Source: Sphingomonadales bacterium (GTDB lineage: Bacteria > Pseudomonadota > Alphaproteobacteria > Sphingomonadales > Sphingomonadaceae). From it: 11,422 bases of DNA. The position numbers and the translations under genes were made by a program. Position 1 is the stretch's first letter; each line of letters starts with the position of its first letter. The notes below the pieces were generated by a model, which saw only the letters and a program-made list of their open reading frames with translations, did no database searches and was not told the DNA's origin. Below are positions 1,716-9,517 of the stretch, piece after piece. Location: contig JAAFIT010000035.1 of assembly GCA_013298745.1 (NCBI GenBank), forward strand, positions 1 through 11,422, read 5' to 3'.

Positions 1716-1731
1716 TGCAGGAAGTGTGCCA
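1716..1731 (-). promoter_or_regulatory. Sigma-54 (-24/-12) promoter for urcA and probably the adaptor operon
   Basis: The minus strand reads TGGCACACTTCCTGCA. This matches the RpoN consensus TGGCACGRNNNTTGCW with the invariant GG and GC in exactly the required spacing; the mismatches are at the G, the R and the first T of TTGC. The predicted transcription start is about 1705, giving a 5' leader of about 38 nt with a good ribosome-binding site before urcA. An NtrC-type activator is encoded divergently next door. Confidence 0.78.
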
Positions 1732-1795
1732 AGTGGATAAGTAATTGATTTTGCTTGATTCAATTGCGGAACATGAAAAAAATACATCGTGCGGC

Positions 1796-1811
1796 TGTTC
1801 GCTTTCGGACA
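1796..1811. promoter_or_regulatory. Upstream activator palindrome 1 (TGTTCG-N4-CGGACA)
   Basis: TGTTCGCTTTCGGACA is an imperfect inverted repeat (TGTTCG against CGGACA, one mismatch) with a 4-nt centre. Its centre is about 98 bp upstream of the predicted sigma-54 start, a normal distance for an enhancer site. It is the same motif as palindrome 2, 21 bp away. The likely ligand is the Fis-type HTH of the adjacent response regulator. It also lies 50 bp before that regulator's start codon, so autoregulation is possible. Confidence 0.65.
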
Positions 1812-1816
1812 GATGC

Positions 1817-1832
1817 TGTACGAATCCGGACA
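1817..1832. promoter_or_regulatory. Upstream activator palindrome 2 (TGTACG-N4-CGGACA)
   Basis: TGTACGAATCCGGACA has the same half-sites as palindrome 1 and an unrelated 4-nt centre, so only the recognition bases are conserved. The 21-bp centre-to-centre distance is two helical turns and places both sites on one DNA face, as expected for co-operative binding of an NtrC-family oligomer. It sits about 120 bp upstream of the sigma-54 start and 29 bp before the regulator ATG. Confidence 0.65.
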
Positions 1833-1861: not shown

Positions 1862-3247
1862 ATGCCCGCACGCGGCACTGCGCTGATTGTCGATGACGAT
1901 GCCGATGTGGCGCTGTCGGCGCGGCTGTTGCTGCGGCCACTGTTCGCCGAGGTGATCGTCGCGCATGATCCGGCAGCGCTACCGGCGCTGCTCAAGGCGC
2001 ACGATCCCGATGTCATCCTGCTCGACATGAATTTCGCGCGCGGTCAATCGAGCGGTGCCGAAGGCTTCAAGGCGCTGGAACTCATCCGCCGTCATGATCC
2101 GCAGGCGGTGGTGGTGATCATCACCGCCTATGGCGGGGTGAATATCGCCGTCGAAGCGATGAAGCGCGGCGCCACCGATTTCGTCACCAAGCCGTGGGAC
2201 AATGACCGGCTGGTGGCAACCGTCACGACAGCGGCGGCCTTGCGGGCAAGCCGCCGCGACGCACACGTCGCCGAAGCGCGCCTCGCCGAAATGGTGACGA
2301 CGGCACGGCCGGAAAGCCCGCTGCTGGGTCGCTCGGCCGCGATGCGCGGCGTTCTGGCGCTGATCGATCGGGTCGCGCCGACCGATGCCAATGTGCTGGT
2401 GCTCGGCGAGAATGGCACCGGCAAGGAACTCATCGCCCGCGAACTCCACGCTCGCTCGAAACGCGCCGCCAAGCCCTTCCTGTCGGTTGATCTGGGGGCG
2501 GTCGCCGAAAGCCTGTTCGATTCCGAGCTGTTCGGCCATGTGAAGGGCGCCTTCACCGATGCGCGTGCCGATCGCATCGGGCGGTTCCAGGCGGCCGATG
2601 GCGGCACATTGTTTCTCGATGAAATCGGCAATCTGCCGCTCAACCTGCAACCCAAATTGTTGACGGCACTCGAACAGCGGCGGGTGACGCCGGTCGGCAG
2701 CAATCGCGATGTCGGCTTCGACGTGCGGGTGATTGCCGCCACCAACATGGCGCCGGCCGATCTGGCCGATGAGCGCCGCTTCCGGCCCGACTTGCTGTTC
2801 CGATTGAACACCGTCGAGATCGTGCTGCCGCCACTGCGCGACCGGCCCGAGGATGTGCCGCTGCTTCTCGATCACTATCTCGGGCTCTATGCTCGCAAAT
2901 ATGGCAAGCCACTCCCGGTGCTGCCCGTAGCGTTGGCGGCCCGGCTGGCCGCTTATGATTGGCCGGGCAATGTCCGGGCGCTGCGCCACGCGGCCGAACG
3001 CGCCATCATCCTCGCTGCCGGTGACAGTTTCACCGATGACGATTTTCCGTTGCCGAAGCGCACGACGGCGATTGCAGCGGCACCGGTCGTCAGCGACGCC
3101 GAAATCGACATGAACCTCGAGCGCAGCGAGCGCCGCATCATCGAGCGAGCATTGCAGAAACACGCCTGGAACATCTCGACTGCCGCGGCTGCACTCGGGC
3201 TGACCCGTGCTTCGCTTTACCGCCGCATGGAAAAGCACGGGCTATGA
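1862..3247 (+). CDS. Sigma-54-dependent response regulator (NtrC family)
   Basis: Transcriptional activator of 461 residues in three domains. The receiver (about 5-122) has the acidic pocket DDD at 11-13, phospho-acceptor Asp55, Thr88 and Lys110. The AAA+ domain (about 153-385) has Walker A GENGTGKE at 182-189, ELFGHVKGAFTDA at 222-234 as the sigma-54 contact loop, Walker B GGTLFLDEIG at 247-256 and arginine-finger region FRPDLLFRL. The C-terminal Fis-type HTH (about 415-460) includes NISTAAAALGLTRASLYRRM. The contact loop reads GAFTDA where the classic form is GAFTGA. ATG at 1862 is preferred because GGAG lies five bases upstream; the TTG one codon earlier is too close to it. The stop overlaps the kinase start by ATGA, so the two are translationally coupled. 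It probably drives the divergent urcA/adaptor promoter; that is inference from site layout. Confidence 0.95.
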   Translation: MPARGTALIVDDDADVALSARLLLRPLFAEVIVAHDPAALPALLKAHDPDVILLDMNFARGQSSGAEGFKALELIRRHDPQAVVVIITAYGGVNIAVEAMKRGATDFVTKPWDNDRLVATVTTAAALRASRRDAHVAEARLAEMVTTARPESPLLGRSAAMRGVLALIDRVAPTDANVLVLGENGTGKELIARELHARSKRAAKPFLSVDLGAVAESLFDSELFGHVKGAFTDARADRIGRFQAADGGTLFLDEIGNLPLNLQPKLLTALEQRRVTPVGSNRDVGFDVRVIAATNMAPADLADERRFRPDLLFRLNTVEIVLPPLRDRPEDVPLLLDHYLGLYARKYGKPLPVLPVALAARLAAYDWPGNVRALRHAAERAIILAAGDSFTDDDFPLPKRTTAIAAAPVVSDAEIDMNLERSERRIIERALQKHAWNISTAAAALGLTRASLYRRMEKHGL

Positions 3248-4575
3248 GCGACATGCCGCTCGGCACCCGCTTCGAAGTCGGGCTTGTGGCGCGCATTGCC
3301 GTGCTGCTGGGGGCCGGCGCGGCGCTGGCCTGGGCGGTCACCCGGCCGGGGCTGTACGCGACAACATTGCTCGCCGGCATCCTGACGGGTGCCGCGCTGG
3401 CGGAACTCTGGCTGTTCATCCGCCGCACCAACTTTGCCGTGGCGCGCTTTGTCGAAGCCTTGACCCATGATGATTTCACCCAGGGGTTCAGCGGCACTGG
3501 CGGCGGCTTCGGCGCGCTCGCCGACAGCCTCAATGGTGCCATCGCCCGGCTGCGCAACGAGCGTGCGGCAATCCAGGACGACAATCGCTATCTGGCGGCG
3601 CTGGTTGATGATGTGCCCAGCCCGTTGGTCAGTATTGATGCCGAGGGCCGGGTGGCGTTGCTCAACAAGGCGGCGCGGCGGCTGCTGGTGGCAACCATCG
3701 CGCGCACCGATGATCTGGCGCTGCACGGCGAAGCGTTTCGCGGCGATGTGATGAGCCTCAAGCCCGGCGAGCGGCAGGCGACGCAGCTGATCGTCGGCGG
3801 CGTGCCGACGGCGGCGCTGCTGTCGATGGCCGAAGTGCGTCAGGCGCGCGGGCCGATGCGGATCCTCGCCATCCAGCCGATCCAGGCCGAGCTTGATCGA
3901 GCCGAACTGGCGGCGCAGACCGATCTGGTGCGCGTGCTGACGCACGAGATCATGAATTCGATGACGCCGGTGACTTCGCTGTCGGCCACCGCGGCGCAAC
4001 TGATCGCCGCCGCCGATACTGGCCATGATCCGGCGATTGCCGATGCGCGCGCCGCGATCGAGACCGTGGCACGGCGCGCCGAAGGGGTGATGCACTTCGT
4101 CCGGACCTATCGCCAGTTGACCCGGCCACCCGAATTGCACCGCCGGATGGTCGATGTTGCGGCGCTTTTTGCCGAATTGAAGCGCCTTTTCGAAAGTGAT
4201 TGGCCGAATTTGCCCTTGGCGGTGGCGATCGCGCCGCCGGGGCTGGCGATCGATGCCGATCCGGATTTGCTCGCGCAATTGCTGATCAACCTGCTGCGCA
4301 ACGCGGCGGCGGCCGTCGACGGGGTTGAGTCGCCGGTGGTGCGGCTGGAGGCGACAGCACAGAAGGCCGGGCGTGTGGCCATCGATGTCAGCGACAATGG
4401 CGTCGGCGTGCCCGAAGCGCAGCGGCAGGATATCTTTCTGCCGTTTTTCACCACCAAGGCCGACGGTACGGGCGTGGGTTTGAGTCTCGCCCGCCAGATT
4501 GCCTTGGCGCATGGTGGGGCGCTGACATGCGAAGCTGTGGTTCCGGCAGGAACGCGGTTCCGGCTGTTGCTCTGA
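3244..4575 (+). CDS. Membrane sensor histidine kinase, cognate partner of the NtrC-type regulator
   Basis: Protein of 443 residues. Two hydrophobic segments (about 16-33 and 37-59) are separated by only a few residues (RPG), so it has essentially no periplasmic sensing domain. A HAMP-like or linker region is followed by a PAS-like segment (about 112-212, with LVDDVPSPLVSIDAEGRV). The dimerisation/phospho-acceptor box is LTHEIMNSMTPV with His234. The ATPase domain has N-box NLLRNAA (349-355), G1 DNGVGVP (384-390), F-box FFTTK (401-405) and G2 GTGVGL (408-413). All catalytic elements are intact. The HExxN form of the H-box is common among NtrB/NtrY-like kinases. It follows the regulator with a 4-bp overlap, making it the expected phosphodonor for Asp55. 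The signal may be sensed within the membrane or by the PAS region; this cannot be decided here. Confidence 0.93.
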   Translation: MSDMPLGTRFEVGLVARIAVLLGAGAALAWAVTRPGLYATTLLAGILTGAALAELWLFIRRTNFAVARFVEALTHDDFTQGFSGTGGGFGALADSLNGAIARLRNERAAIQDDNRYLAALVDDVPSPLVSIDAEGRVALLNKAARRLLVATIARTDDLALHGEAFRGDVMSLKPGERQATQLIVGGVPTAALLSMAEVRQARGPMRILAIQPIQAELDRAELAAQTDLVRVLTHEIMNSMTPVTSLSATAAQLIAAADTGHDPAIADARAAIETVARRAEGVMHFVRTYRQLTRPPELHRRMVDVAALFAELKRLFESDWPNLPLAVAIAPPGLAIDADPDLLAQLLINLLRNAAAAVDGVESPVVRLEATAQKAGRVAIDVSDNGVGVPEAQRQDIFLPFFTTKADGTGVGLSLARQIALAHGGALTCEAVVPAGTRFRLLL

Positions 4576-4626
4576 CGCCGCGCGAAAGTTCGGCCACAGG
4601 CGCACGGACAGGCTTGCCATAAATGA

Positions 4627-4643
4627 CTGTCATGTCATGACAG
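4627..4643. repeat. Perfect 17-bp palindrome upstream of the nuclease gene
   Basis: CTGTCATGTCATGACAG has two perfect 8-bp arms around a single central base. It overlaps the proposed Pho box, and part of the symmetry arises from repeated TGTCA units. It could be an independent operator for a dimeric regulator or simply a by-product of the Pho half-sites. Confidence 0.6.
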
Positions 4644-4649
4644 TGTCAC
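4632..4649 (+). promoter_or_regulatory. Probable Pho box (PhoB-binding site) for the extracellular nuclease
   Basis: ATGTCAT-GACA-GTGTCAC consists of two 7-bp direct repeats 11 bp apart. It matches the known pattern CTGTCAT-N4-CTGTCAC/T at all but the first base of each repeat. A further CTGTCAT starts five bases earlier at 4627. The box ends 45 bp before the start codon, leaving room for a -10 element around 4657-4664 (ATCTATCC, weak), which is where PhoB-dependent promoters place it. A phosphate-scavenging nuclease is a fitting target. Confidence 0.62.
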
Positions 4650-4694: not shown

Positions 4695-7600
4695 ATGACG
4701 ACGACGCGCTTCGCCCTTTCGACCGGCAATTTCTCTCAGGATTGGTCCAACGCCGGGTTGATCTCCGGCGACGACGATTGGTCGGGCGTGCCGAGCATTA
4801 TGGGCTATCGCGGTGACGATCTTGTGTCGGCGACCGGTGTTGACCCGCAGACCATTACCAGTGGCGCGGCGTCGCCGGGCCCGGTTGATGTCAATGCCAA
4901 CCAGAACAACCCCAACACCTTAGCCATTGGCGGTGTCGCCGAATTCGCGATCACCAACCCGACCATCGCGCTGAATGGGTCCGGCACCGCCGATGCGCCA
5001 AACATCGTCATCTATCTTGATGCGACCGGCCGCGAAAACATCCGTTTCCAGGCGAACATCCGCGATCTTGATGGCAGCGCCGACAATGCCATCCAGCAGG
5101 TTGCCGTGCAGTATCGTGTCGGCGGCGGCAATTGGGTCAATGCGGCCTATACTGCCGATGCCACGACCGCCGGCACGGCGACACAGGTGACTGCCGTCGA
5201 TGTGACACTTGGCGCCGGCGCCAACAATGCTGCCGATCTGGAAATCCGCATCATCACCACCAATGCCGCAGGCAACGACGAATGGGTCGGCATCGACGAT
5301 ATCGTGGTGTCGTCGGTCGGCCAGGCTGCCGATACAACAGCGCCGGCACTTGCTGCCTTCAATCCAGCGGATCCCGATGATGGCGCCGTCGCGGTTCCCG
5401 CCGATGGCAATATCGTGTTGCGCTTCACCGAAACGATCGTTGCCGGCACCGGCAGCTTTACCCTCTCGAACGGCACCGATGTTCGCACCATCGCCATTAC
5501 CGACCCTCAGGTGACGATCAGCGGCAATACGCTGACGATCAACCCCGCCACCGACTTGGTCGGCGGCACCACCTATGCGCTGACCGCCGGCGCCGGCATC
5601 GTCGAGGACGCGGCAGGCAATGATTTTGCCGGCATCGCTGCCGGTGTGCTCGATTTCACCATCGCGGCGCCGCTGGTGCTGCGCACCATCGGTGAAATCC
5701 AGGGACTTGGCCACATCAGCGCTTACGCCGGCAGTATCGTCCTCACCAACGGTGTCGTCACTGCCATTGATACCAACGGCTTTTACATCCAGAGCGCCAG
5801 CGGCGCGTCGGATGGCGATTCGCGCACCTCCGATGGCATCTTTGTCTTCACCAGTTCCGCTCCTGCCAGCGTGGCAATCGGCGATCTGGTGCAGGTGTCG
5901 GGCACCGTGACCGAATTCCGCCCGGCCAATGATAGCCGCAACCTGACGATCACCCAGATCATCTCGCCAAGCATCAGCAAGCTGGGCACCGCAGCCTTCG
6001 ACACCATCATCATCGGCAATGGCGCCTTGCTGCCGCCGACGTCAGTGATCGATGACGACAGCTTCACCAGCTATGATCCGGCCAGCGACGGCATCGATTT
6101 CTGGGAATCGCTGGAAGGCATGCAGATCACCATCGATACGCCGATCGCGGTGTCGAATACCAACGGCTTTGGCGAAACCTATGTGGTCGCCAGCGGCGGC
6201 GCTGGGGCCACCGGCATGTCGGCGAGCGGTGGCATCACCATTTCGCAGGGCGATTCGAACCCCGAAAAGCTGCAACTCGACAACGACAATGGCCTGTTCG
6301 CCGGCTTCACCAACACCTTCAGTGTCGGTGATCGCCTGAGCAACGTCACCGGCATCATCAGCTATGCCTTCCAGAGCTATGAACTGCTCGTCACCCAGGC
6401 GGTGACCACCACCACCGACGTGACTGCTGTCAAGGAAGTCACCAGCCTTGTTGAAGCCGCCGACAAACTGTCGATCGGCAATTACAACCTCGAGAATCTT
6501 GATCCTACTGACAGCATCGCCAAATTCGCCTCGCTTGCGTCGGATATCGTCAACAACCTGAAATCGCCCGATATTCTTGGCGTCCAAGAAATTCAGGATG
6601 CCGATGGCGCCGGGAATGGGATCAATTATTCCGGTCAGGCAACCGCCGATAAGCTGATCGCTGCAATCGTTGCTGCCGGCGGCCCGACCTATGCCTATGT
6701 TGAAGTGGCACCCAGCGCCCCCAATACGACCGGTGGTGAGCCGAATGGCAATATTCGCAACGGCTTCTTCTATGATCCGGCGCGTGTGAGCTATGTCGCC
6801 GGCTCGGCACAGCTGATCCAGGACGTTGCCTTTACCGGGAGCCGTCGTCCGCTTGTCGCCCAGTTCGAGTTCAACGGTGAAAAAATCACCCTCATCAACA
6901 TGCATTCGACGTCGCGCGGTGGCTCGGATGCGCAATGGGGATCAACGCAGCCACCAGCCAATGCCAGCGATGCCGCGCGCACCGCACAGGCGTTGGCGGT
7001 CAAGGCCTATGTCGACTCGCTCCTCGCGGTTGATCCGGCGGCAAAGATTGTCGTTCAGGGCGATTTCAACGGTTTCACTTGGGAAAATGCCATTCAGGCG
7101 CTCGTCGCCGGCGGCACGCTGAGCGATCTGTCGACGTTGTTGCCGGAGGCTGAGCGCTATTCCTACCAGTTTGAAGGCAATAACCAGCAACTCGATCACA
7201 TGCTGACGACCAACAATTTGCGCGCGGTGGCGCAATTTGATGCTGTGCAACTCAACGCCGAGCTTCCCGCTGCGCAGCAGATCTCCACAGACCATGATGC
7301 GCTGCTGGCGATCTTCGAAATCCCGGTCAAGCTGTCCGGCACCGAAGGGCCTGATGTGATCAACGGCACAAATGCCAGCGAAGTCATCCACGGCCTCGGC
7401 GGCAATGACATGATTTTTGGCACTGGCGGCAACGACACGATCTATGGCGGCGAGGGCGCTGACGCCATCCAGGGCGGCGCAGGCAGCAACATCATCTTCG
7501 GCGGTGCTGGCAATGATGTCATCGGCGGTGAAGCCGTTGCCGGTGTCCACACTGTCGATGGCGGCGCAGGCTCCGATTACTTCATCGCGAATTCGGCCGG

Positions 7601-8069
7601 CGAGACGGTGGTCATCGATCTGAATAGCGGCACGGTGACCGGCGGCTATGCCGATGGCTCAACCTTGACCAGTGTCGAGATGCTGAAAGCCGCTCGCGGC
7701 AACTTCGCCGTGGAATTCTACGGCGACAACGGGGTCAATGCGTTTGTCGGGACGGCATGGGCCGATATCCTGTCGGGCGGCGGCGGCAACGACAAGCTGA
7801 TTGGCGGTCGCGGCGGAGACACGTTGAGTGGCGGCTCTGGCGCTGACAAGTTCGTGTTCAGGGTCGGCGACATCAACGGTGACATCATCACGGATTTCGA
7901 TGGCAATGGCACCGCCATCGGCGACACGCTGAATTTCGAAGGCTTCGGCCCAGGGGCATCGCTCAGCAATGTCGGCACGGTCTGGACGATCAGTTACGGC
8001 GCAGGCCTGACCGAAACATTCACGATGAACGTCACCTCGCTGGCGGTCGGTGATGTGATCTTTGGCTGA
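4695..8069 (+). CDS. ExeM/NucH-like extracellular endonuclease with RTX repeats, type I secreted
   Basis: Protein of 1124 residues, probably an extracellular metal-dependent DNase/phosphodiesterase. Domains in order: an N-terminal beta-rich region (1-210, FSQDWSNAGLISGDDDWSGV); an Ig-like Big_5 type domain (about 213-325, with DTTAPALAAFNPADPDDGAV); an OB-fold-like domain (about 328-430, IGEIQGLGH, GDLVQVSGTV); a linker; an endonuclease/exonuclease/phosphatase domain (about 590-875); and RTX nonapeptides of GGxGxD type (about 882-945 and 1019-1056), ending in the hydrophobic tail usual for type I substrates. Catalytic-type residues are present: N598 and E600 in NYNLENL, E632 in GVQEIQD, H737 in NMHSTS, D790 and N792 in GDFNGF, H867 in STDHDA. 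No Sec signal is seen. GGAG lies 12 bases before the ATG, rather far. It stands alone behind a Pho box; no type I exporter genes are in the window. Confidence 0.92.
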   Translation: MTTTRFALSTGNFSQDWSNAGLISGDDDWSGVPSIMGYRGDDLVSATGVDPQTITSGAASPGPVDVNANQNNPNTLAIGGVAEFAITNPTIALNGSGTADAPNIVIYLDATGRENIRFQANIRDLDGSADNAIQQVAVQYRVGGGNWVNAAYTADATTAGTATQVTAVDVTLGAGANNAADLEIRIITTNAAGNDEWVGIDDIVVSSVGQAADTTAPALAAFNPADPDDGAVAVPADGNIVLRFTETIVAGTGSFTLSNGTDVRTIAITDPQVTISGNTLTINPATDLVGGTTYALTAGAGIVEDAAGNDFAGIAAGVLDFTIAAPLVLRTIGEIQGLGHISAYAGSIVLTNGVVTAIDTNGFYIQSASGASDGDSRTSDGIFVFTSSAPASVAIGDLVQVSGTVTEFRPANDSRNLTITQIISPSISKLGTAAFDTIIIGNGALLPPTSVIDDDSFTSYDPASDGIDFWESLEGMQITIDTPIAVSNTNGFGETYVVASGGAGATGMSASGGITISQGDSNPEKLQLDNDNGLFAGFTNTFSVGDRLSNVTGIISYAFQSYELLVTQAVTTTTDVTAVKEVTSLVEAADKLSIGNYNLENLDPTDSIAKFASLASDIVNNLKSPDILGVQEIQDADGAGNGINYSGQATADKLIAAIVAAGGPTYAYVEVAPSAPNTTGGEPNGNIRNGFFYDPARVSYVAGSAQLIQDVAFTGSRRPLVAQFEFNGEKITLINMHSTSRGGSDAQWGSTQPPANASDAARTAQALAVKAYVDSLLAVDPAAKIVVQGDFNGFTWENAIQALVAGGTLSDLSTLLPEAERYSYQFEGNNQQLDHMLTTNNLRAVAQFDAVQLNAELPAAQQISTDHDALLAIFEIPVKLSGTEGPDVINGTNASEVIHGLGGNDMIFGTGGNDTIYGGEGADAIQGGAGSNIIFGGAGNDVIGGEAVAGVHTVDGGAGSDYFIANSAGETVVIDLNSGTVTGGYADGSTLTSVEMLKAARGNFAVEFYGDNGVNAFVGTAWADILSGGGGNDKLIGGRGGDTLSGGSGADKFVFRVGDINGDIITDFDGNGTAIGDTLNFEGFGPGASLSNVGTVWTISYGAGLTETFTMNVTSLAVGDVIFG

Positions 8070-8468: not shown

Positions 8469-8834
8469 ATGCAAACAGGGCTTGCGGCAGTGGCGCGTAT
8501 GCTGCCCGGCATATTGCTGTGTTGCGCCCTGGCGATGGCCGGCAATGCGCTGGTGGCTTGGGCGCGTCTGCCCATTCCGGGGGCGGTGCTGGGGTTGCTC
8601 GTCTATCTCGGCTGGTTGATCAGCGGTCGTAGTATCGGTTGGAGCGTGCCGGGCGCCGCGCTGTTGCTGCGCTGGATTGGTGCTTTGATTGTGCCGGCAC
8701 TGGTCGGCTTGACCGCTTATGCTGGCGTCGTGGTGGGCGCCGCGGTGCCGTTGCTGGTCGTGCTGGTCGCGACAACATTGATCACAGCACTGGCGACGGC
8801 GGTGATCTTCCGGTTGGCTGGAGGTCGCAGTTGA
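8469..8834 (+). CDS. CidA/LrgA family holin-like membrane protein
   Basis: Protein of 121 residues, nearly all hydrophobic, with about four membrane segments. The family signature LPIPGAVLGLLVYLGWL follows the first segment. CidA/LrgA proteins are holin-like inner-membrane proteins connected to murein hydrolase control, cell death and, more recently, transport of small organic acids such as pyruvate; which applies here is unknown. The start at 8469 follows GGAAGGGG, a purine-rich ribosome-binding site a few bases upstream. Its stop overlaps the next gene's TTG start (TTGA), so the pair is translationally coupled, matching the usual lrgA-lrgB order. Confidence 0.87.
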   Translation: MQTGLAAVARMLPGILLCCALAMAGNALVAWARLPIPGAVLGLLVYLGWLISGRSIGWSVPGAALLLRWIGALIVPALVGLTAYAGVVVGAAVPLLVVLVATTLITALATAVIFRLAGGRS

Positions 8835-9517
8835 TCCTGGCGATGGCGCTCGCCTGTGCGTTGGTGCTGGCTGGCTTTGCTGCTGCGCGTTCGCTCTCGG
8901 CTCGGCTCGGGCATCCGCCTTGGGCGAGCCCGGTGCTGGTGATAGCGCTGGCGATCATTGCCGGGTTGGCGGTCTCCGGTGTGCCGCTGGCGGATTTTGA
9001 AGCTGCGACCGCGCCGCTGCGTTGGCTGCTGGGCCCGGCGCTGGTGGCGCTGGCGCTGGTGATTGATGGCAACCGCTCGCTGCTGCGCGCGCACGCGGTG
9101 CCGGTGCTGGTGGCGGTGGTGGGCGGCGCGCTGGTCGGGATCGGCAGCGCGGTCGCGCTGGCACGGCTGCTTGGCATCGATGGTGCACTTGCCGCCGCGC
9201 TCGTCACCAAAACCGTGACGACACCGTTCACCGTGGCGATCATGACGCGTGTTGACGGGCCGGTGGCGCTGGCGGCGGCGCTGTCGGTGTTGACCGGTGT
9301 CATTGGCGCCCTGCTGGTGCCACCGCTGTTCGCGCGCCTCAAGGTCGACGATCCGGCGGCCCGCGCCCTGGGGCTTGGTGTGTCGGCGCATATTGTTGGC
9401 ACCGATTGGCTGACCCGGCGTGATGCGCGCAGCGGCGGGTTGGCAGCGCTGGCCTTTGTCGTTACCGGATTGGTTGCCGCGCTGGTGGTTCCACTGGCGT
9501 GGCGGTTTCTCTTGTAG
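8831..9517 (+). CDS. LrgB family membrane protein
   Basis: Protein of 228 residues, polytopic, with many Ala/Leu/Val membrane segments and the LrgB core: LVTKTVTTPFTVAIM, then ALSVLTGVIGALLVPPLF, then DDPAARALGLGVSAHIVGTDWL. The TTG start at 8831 is chosen over the later ATG at 8843 because GGAGG (8820-8824) sits six bases upstream of the TTG and 18 from the ATG, and TTG gives the TTGA overlap with lrgA. The frame is open further upstream inside lrgA, but that part is out-of-frame shadow. LrgB acts with LrgA in the inner membrane. No terminator is obvious after it. Confidence 0.87.
   Translation: MILAMALACALVLAGFAAARSLSARLGHPPWASPVLVIALAIIAGLAVSGVPLADFEAATAPLRWLLGPALVALALVIDGNRSLLRAHAVPVLVAVVGGALVGIGSAVALARLLGIDGALAAALVTKTVTTPFTVAIMTRVDGPVALAAALSVLTGVIGALLVPPLFARLKVDDPAARALGLGVSAHIVGTDWLTRRDARSGGLAALAFVVTGLVAALVVPLAWRFLL

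Follow-up and report, generated by a model that had tools for sequence, protein, structure and literature searches.

A probable sigma-54-dependent two-component switch at an envelope exporter operon of a Sphingomonadales bacterium

Genes and control elements of the locus

The window analyzed here is a whole 11.4-kb contig (C290) from a genome assembly of 2.96 Mb that is 79% complete. On its plus strand, residues 1862–3247 encode an NtrC-type response regulator with a receiver, a PF00158 AAA+ sigma-54 activation domain carrying a GAFTDA loop, and a Fis-type helix-turn-helix (HTH), in agreement with the initial annotation; translation could also begin at a TTG at 1859. The NCBIfam models for ZraR (318.8 bits, cut-off 760), AtoC (343.5 bits, cut-off 714), and NtrC (316.6 bits, cut-off 558.6) all scored this protein under their cut-offs. 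Among regulators with a named organism, the closest come from Polymorphobacter fuscus (88% identical) and Sandarakinorhabdus (85%). The regulator gene overlaps by four bases with a histidine kinase gene (3244–4575, plus strand) whose product has two N-terminal membrane helices and lacks a periplasmic domain. A hydropathy count on 24 kinases gave two N-terminal helices separated by at most about 10 residues in 20 and a single helix in four, and none of the 24 showed a large outside part by this count. An ExeM/NucH-type extracellular nuclease gene with RTX repeats (4695–8069; 181.3 bits, below the cut-off of 300) and an LrgA-LrgB gene pair of the CidA/CidB type (8469–9517) are also present in the window. 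A TGACTGTCATGTCATGACAGT-type inverted repeat was seen by eye near 4622–4646, ahead of the nuclease gene, and a related nuclease gene also adjoins the kinase in the relative L055.

The minus strand carries an operon whose first gene is a urcA family member (1287–1667; TIGR04433, 67.1 bits, cut-off 25) and whose second gene encodes an HlyD/RND-type periplasmic adaptor (3–1214) that is truncated by the contig end. The truncated adaptor scores 157.5 bits against the DarC model (cut-off 450). A permease search of the window's own genome, at 79% completeness and run with no positive control, returned no match. Because the contig ends inside HlyD and the own genome gave no permease match, the rest of the operon is inferred from relatives. 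The same genome encodes RpoN (PF04552, 213 bits, above cut-off) and an IHF-beta-type protein above the family cut-off; an IHF alpha-type model gave hits below cut-off only, the best of them at the IHF-beta-type gene.

The intergenic gap contains a candidate −24/−12 sigma-54 promoter, TGGCAC-N5-CTGC (TGGCACACTTCCTGC), at 1717–1731 on the minus strand, reading into urcA. The initial annotation had proposed this promoter with RpoN spacing, and it is exact at these positions. It is the single exact occurrence of TGGCAC-N5-YTGC in the window. The promoter by itself is within chance in the window, since three matches with one mismatch were found against 3.19 expected. The sole departure from GG-N10-GC with TGGCAC/TTGC context is the −12 box, which is CTGC in place of the consensus TTGC. 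CTGC is common to the window and its close relatives L055–L060, and TTGC is found in most other loci; the change perhaps makes a weaker promoter in the window's lineage. Transcription of urcA would start near 1705, 12 bp past the −12 C.

Two predicted operator palindromes of the form TGTNCG-N4-CGGACA lie farther upstream. The promoter-proximal copy is TGTTCG-CTTT-CGGACA (TGTTCGCTTTCGGACA) at 1796–1811, and the promoter-distal copy is TGTACG-AATC-CGGACA (TGTACGAATCCGGACA) at 1817–1832. Their spacing of 21 bp was likewise annotated correctly, and their centers, about 98.5 and 119.5 bp upstream of the predicted start, reproduce the original estimate of about 98 and 120 bp. At one mismatch or less, the window contains four strand-wise matches to this motif compared to a mean of 0.30 in shuffles, and four were reached in 0 of 200 shuffles. 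The center of the pair is 83 bp from the TGG of the promoter. Because the palindromes also lie 30–66 bp ahead of the regulator start, the regulator may control its own gene. In the 79%-complete own genome the pair is unique even at three mismatches, and the reversed pattern gave no match. Lone palindromes in this genome gave seven matches, against three for the reversed control, and were dropped as further operators since they are unpaired within three mismatches.

Between the palindromes and the promoter, a candidate IHF site (AATCAATTACTTA) at 1738–1750 on the minus strand, an element absent from the initial annotation, is a perfect match to the IHF consensus WATCAANNNNTTR. It begins 19 bp upstream of the TGG. 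The consensus occurs once in the 11.4-kb window, where 0.10 occurrences are expected, and 19 of 200 shuffles contain one. Single-strand folding of the intergenic gap gave nothing unusual (z = 1.0).

Conservation of the operator pair beside exporter genes

Close relatives of the regulator (E ≤ 1e-100) were found in 26 of the 79 genomes searched, which comprise the window's own genome and its relatives; the 26 include the own genome. Wider stretches were compared for 25 other regulator loci (L055–L079) and for the locus of a paralog with 41% identity (L080). The proposal of a concrete operator depended on the palindromes recurring in related genomes, and they do. A pair with 20–22 bp spacing and at least 17 of the 20 fixed bases stands before an HlyD/ABC exporter operon in all 26 loci, the window and its 25 regulator orthologs. 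The pair is absent from L080. A strict pair (at most two mismatches) is present in 16 of the 26 genomes with the regulator compared to 2 of the 53 without it, and the reversed pattern at the same stringency is found in 0 of 79. Two relatives, G030 and G066, carry the pair with no regulator detected. The pair in L059 is about 2.2 kb from the regulator yet still precedes HlyD. In L061 (5543–5674), the best promoter for HlyD is upstream of the pair, an arrangement in which the enhancer would work from a downstream position. Two pairs and two promoters occur in L063. Three-site arrays, with a third palindrome 24 bp to the promoter side of the pair, are seen in L062, L065, L067, L070, and L071.

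In these relatives the promoter is followed by genes for an HlyD-type adaptor and an ABC ATPase and then by one or more permease genes. The permeases are internally duplicated MacB_PCD-FtsX chains of about 810–870 residues as called, with one at 928. Of the 25 loci from relatives, 20 have such a duplicated permease after the adaptor; of the remaining five, L057, L073, and L078 end before the permease, and L076 and L079 show none. The simple gene finder used here missed the ATPase in some of these loci. The exporter components of L058 fall below the cut-offs of the darobactin-exporter models DarC (181.9 bits, cut-off 450), DarB (84.8, cut-off 700), and DarD (272.2, cut-off 375). The permeases of L058 (298.3 bits), L081 (278.8), and L087 (261.3) also score below the ADOP model TIGR03434 (cut-off 622.3). 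A tblastn search with the window's UrcA over L055–L089 and L095–L211 found the protein in L055, L056, L057, and L059 and weakly in L058; distant UrcA proteins may be missed because one query was used. The annotated target, urcA plus HlyD, stands for the HlyD operon and is better described as an HlyD-ATPase-permease exporter operon, with urcA found as first gene in close relatives only. Stand-alone duplicated permeases in L081, L086, and L087 have their own pair and −24/−12 element, and no such regulator was found in their stretches of about 15 kb. Other pair-bearing loci (L082–L085, L088, and L089) have a TonB-plug-like protein, a PCMT methyltransferase, an alpha/beta hydrolase, and small genes nearby.

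The exact double palindrome (20 fixed bases) was also searched on its own in a collection with one genome per species (84,980 species), and at least 117 loci were found. Using tblastn with six references, an exporter gene was scored when an adaptor, ATPase, or permease started within 600 bp and read away from the pair. This was the case for 90 of the 117 matches listed, and for 95 of the 117 listed when the regulator was included. For the control, 25 random points were placed in each of 40 8-kb stretches, drawn from 20 of 24 genomes of this set, and 0 of the 1000 points had an exporter gene. An adaptor or permease match anywhere in the stretch was found in 2 of the 40 controls compared to 91 of the 117 matches listed. 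No exporter component was detected by tblastn in 11 of the 117 matches listed. By eye, L101 starts a TolC-like protein and L160 an adaptor-like protein. Exporter-linked loci among the matches listed are distributed over Bacteroidota (53/72), Alphaproteobacteria (15/17), Gammaproteobacteria (13/14), Acidobacteriota (1/3), Zixibacteria, Neomarinimicrobiota, Myxococcota, Cloacimonadota, and Desulfobacterota (1/1 each), and unplaced labels (3/4); Chrysiogenales and Latescibacteria gave 0/1 each. The 90 exporter-linked loci among the matches listed cover eight phyla as taken from record titles, and single-phylum cases may be misbinned because several are metagenome bins. These results uphold the operator motif and the sigma-54 reading of the initial annotation and place them in a wider setting, in which several phyla have this operator pair next to exporters of this kind.

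The regulator gene is within 600 bp of the pair in 12 of the 72 Bacteroidota loci among the matches listed. In a sample of 198 Bacteroidota genomes, a variable-gap search found the true pattern in one genome, the chosen center G319, and the reversed pattern in one, and exact pairs are therefore uncommon within Bacteroidota as well. A class sample gave the true variable-gap pattern in 6 of 241 genomes and the reversed pattern in 0 of 241; three of the six have 21-bp spacing (the own genome included), and the other three have different spacings only (17, 30, and 32 bp). G224 and G304, from a distant alphaproteobacterial family, have the same half-sites at 17 bp, which possibly belong to another regulator with the same code. 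The reversed pair pattern was found in 0 of a further set of 24 genomes. One Tannerella genome (G326, the genome of L100) has nine pairs, seven of them almost identical across 37 bp, which fits a multi-operon regulon, and Parapedobacter defluvii has seven.

Helical spacing and the regulator signature

We collected −24/−12-type elements that lie 20–150 bp from the pair and reach a score of 19 or more on a scale devised ad hoc. Of the 117 matches listed in the motif-first set, 55 gave 61 promoter matches, 56 of them at 55–112 bp; more than half of the 117 listed, many of them Bacteroidota, gave no strong promoter by this score. The set built from the window's gene order consisted of 26 regulator loci and nine other pair loci and gave 33 promoters at 55–112 bp. 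L056 and L065 fell under the pair threshold of the scoring script, and their promoters are in phase in a separate locus comparison. The distances from pair center to TGG in both sets (n = 89, the motif-first part from the matches listed) cluster at 70–74, 79–86, and 90–94 bp, and 0 of the 89 fall at 75–78 or 87–89 bp. A scan of periods from 7 to 20 bp gave a best period of 10.6–10.8 bp. With one site per genus, 35 of 36 motif-first distances among the matches listed are within 2.6 bp of 82.5 + 10.5k (R = 0.77, nR2 = 21.2), where 2.6 bp is a quarter turn and would include half of the sites by chance. The corresponding count for the window's order is 30 of 33 (R = 0.74), and 3 of 33 promoters are out of phase. 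The Rayleigh values assume independence and are indicative only. When distances were jittered within one turn, the observed value was reached in 0 of 20,000 trials for either set.

The IHF offset seen in the window recurs in part of the relatives. Exact same-strand copies 18–20 bp before TGG number 4 among the 33 spacers in the window's order and 9 among the 56 motif-first spacers from the matches listed, and if one mismatch is allowed at the same strand and offset the numbers are 9 and 29 (the latter again among the matches listed). An exact site anywhere on either strand occurs in 5 of 33 spacers compared to a shuffled mean of 0.17, and in 11 of 56 among the matches listed compared to 0.43, with shuffles that preserve base composition and not dinucleotide composition. 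Most spacers are without an exact IHF site.

The regulators share a sequence signature. From 153 sources, 66 regulator-like frames were selected with a pattern in which GA[FY][TSA] was already mandatory, and within this selection the sigma-54 loop is GAFTDA in 48, GAFTGA in 17, and GAFTNA in one. The GAFTGA loop is held to contact sigma-54. One HTH signature is present in 61 of the 66 frames, an LD[ML]N[FY] receiver motif in 56, and both in 53. Four of the five frames lacking the HTH signature are cut by the locus end, and the fifth, L190, is a different protein.

Interpretation, alternatives, and relation to known systems

These data point to the 1716–1832 region as the place where a sigma-54-dependent two-component system controls an inducible envelope exporter, a reading to which we assign a probability of roughly 85%. 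The feature is real, conserved, and larger than initially annotated, and in kind it is probably a sigma-54 two-component switch. In the proposed mechanism, the kinase would phosphorylate the NtrC-type regulator; having no outside domain, it probably senses the membrane or the exporter itself. A regulator dimer would occupy each palindrome, the two being separated by two helical turns on one DNA face, and together they would nucleate an AAA+ hexamer. IHF-type bending at 1738–1750 would bring the hexamer onto sigma-54 RNA polymerase at 1717–1731, and ATP hydrolysis would open the promoter to yield a urcA-HlyD-ATPase-permease mRNA in an RpoN-dependent manner. For an NtrC-type hexamer to activate by looping, it needs a pair of sites spaced by two turns, a site of bending, and a promoter in phase. 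From the likeness to darobactin-exporter and MacB components, our guess is that the exported compounds are envelope-active peptides or lipids. Counted against this reading are the missing permease match in the own genome, the departure of GAFTDA from GAFTGA, the scarcity of the regulator beside Bacteroidota pairs, the motif-first loci without a strong promoter, the out-of-phase promoters, the L061 arrangement, the many spacers without an exact IHF site, and the composition-only shuffles.

The palindromes could be the operator of a different regulator, with the neighboring NtrC-type protein acting elsewhere. The Bacteroidota pairs, mostly away from a regulator gene, and the pairs of G030 and G066 fit this idea, but the pair and the regulator co-occur across the 79 genomes, one HTH type accompanies one operator across phyla in 61 of 66 frames, and the paralog locus L080 is without the pair. 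Any sigma-54 promoter, moreover, needs an activator of the NtrC class, and we consider a different regulator improbable. It is also quite improbable that the sites mainly autorepress the regulator-kinase genes beside an incidental −24/−12 element. Their position just before the regulator start and the chance-level frequency of the promoter motif in the window agree with autorepression, but the L059 pair stays with the HlyD promoter at a distance from the regulator, the stand-alone permeases of L081, L086, and L087 have pair and promoter with no such regulator nearby, and the distance from pair to promoter is helically phased. A chance pattern in G+C-rich intergenic DNA would account for the lone palindromes of the own genome and for the equal true and reversed counts in the Bacteroidota sample. 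However, the reversed pair was found in none of the 79-, 241-, and 24-genome sets, and the matches listed from the motif alone lie mostly beside the same gene type; conservation and the reversed-pattern controls rule out a chance origin.

Building on the sigma-54 switch, we tentatively propose a wider reading, which we hold to be somewhat doubtful. An undescribed activator family may use one operator code and a helically quantized enhancer-IHF-promoter geometry in at least eight phyla, mostly with GAFTDA, and its kinase may read the state of the exporter that it controls. Flux sensing has reportedly been proposed for Bce systems. As part of this reading, the regulator might run a regulon of several exporters in some Bacteroidota and a one-operon switch in the window's genome, to the extent that the incomplete assembly reveals. 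Three features are unusual: the operator conserved across phyla, the visible helical quantization, and the GAFTDA majority. The findings supply FtsX/MacB-type exporters, as sigma-54 targets, with an operator that can be tested and an activator family defined by sequence, and the operator pair can serve as a probe in searches for inducible exporters. Surveys demanding GAFTGA will miss most members seen because these carry GAFTDA, and the family is a natural test of loop requirements. The natural distance series of about 72, 83, 93, and 104 bp is a ready-made helical phasing experiment in DNA looping.

Sigma-54 promoters are enriched before COG0577 FtsX-type antimicrobial-peptide permeases in Gammaproteobacteria, Opitutia, and Bacteroidia (PLoS One 2025, PMC12316311), a link that its authors term first evidence. 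In the parts of that paper available to us, no activator, operator, or spacing is named for the COG0577 link, and the activator list contains GAFTGA proteins only, a filter that would exclude 49 of our 66 regulator frames. A flavobacterial sigma-54 regulon has been reported whose members include genes for protein quality control, envelope stress, and gliding (PMC9723704). A word search of PMC3162934 and PMC4641369 gave no match, and we came across no description of the regulator family, its operator, or the spacing in a literature library that lacks preprints and most subscription journals. So far as found, the sigma-54 link to FtsX/MacB-type exporters is known in print as a statistical enrichment only, and the activator, operator, and geometry seen here did not turn up in these searches.

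The system resembles the NtrC-type sigma-54 systems ZraSR, AtoSC, and NtrBC in its receiver-AAA+-Fis HTH regulator, cognate kinase, paired palindromes, and −24/−12 promoter. Paired palindromic enhancers are known for NtrC, and ZraR (1ojl) is the closest solved structure to the window regulator by sequence. The present system differs from these in a regulator under the NCBIfam cut-offs with its own receiver loop and operator, in GAFTDA in most members seen, in a kinase without a periplasmic domain, and in its exporter target. Caulobacter UrcA belongs to the same family as the window protein, but urcA there is under UzcRS, which acts through a CATTAC-N6-TTAA-type site and not a sigma-54 pair (PMC8963506). 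The adaptor, permease, and ATPase of L058 all match the models of the darobactin exporter DarB/DarC/DarD; all three are below cut-offs, so they are relatives and not members of DarBCD. The permease matches ADOP over its length and differs in scoring below the TIGR03434 cut-off. It shares the MacB_PCD-FtsX architecture in duplicated form and, unlike MacB, works with a separate ATPase.
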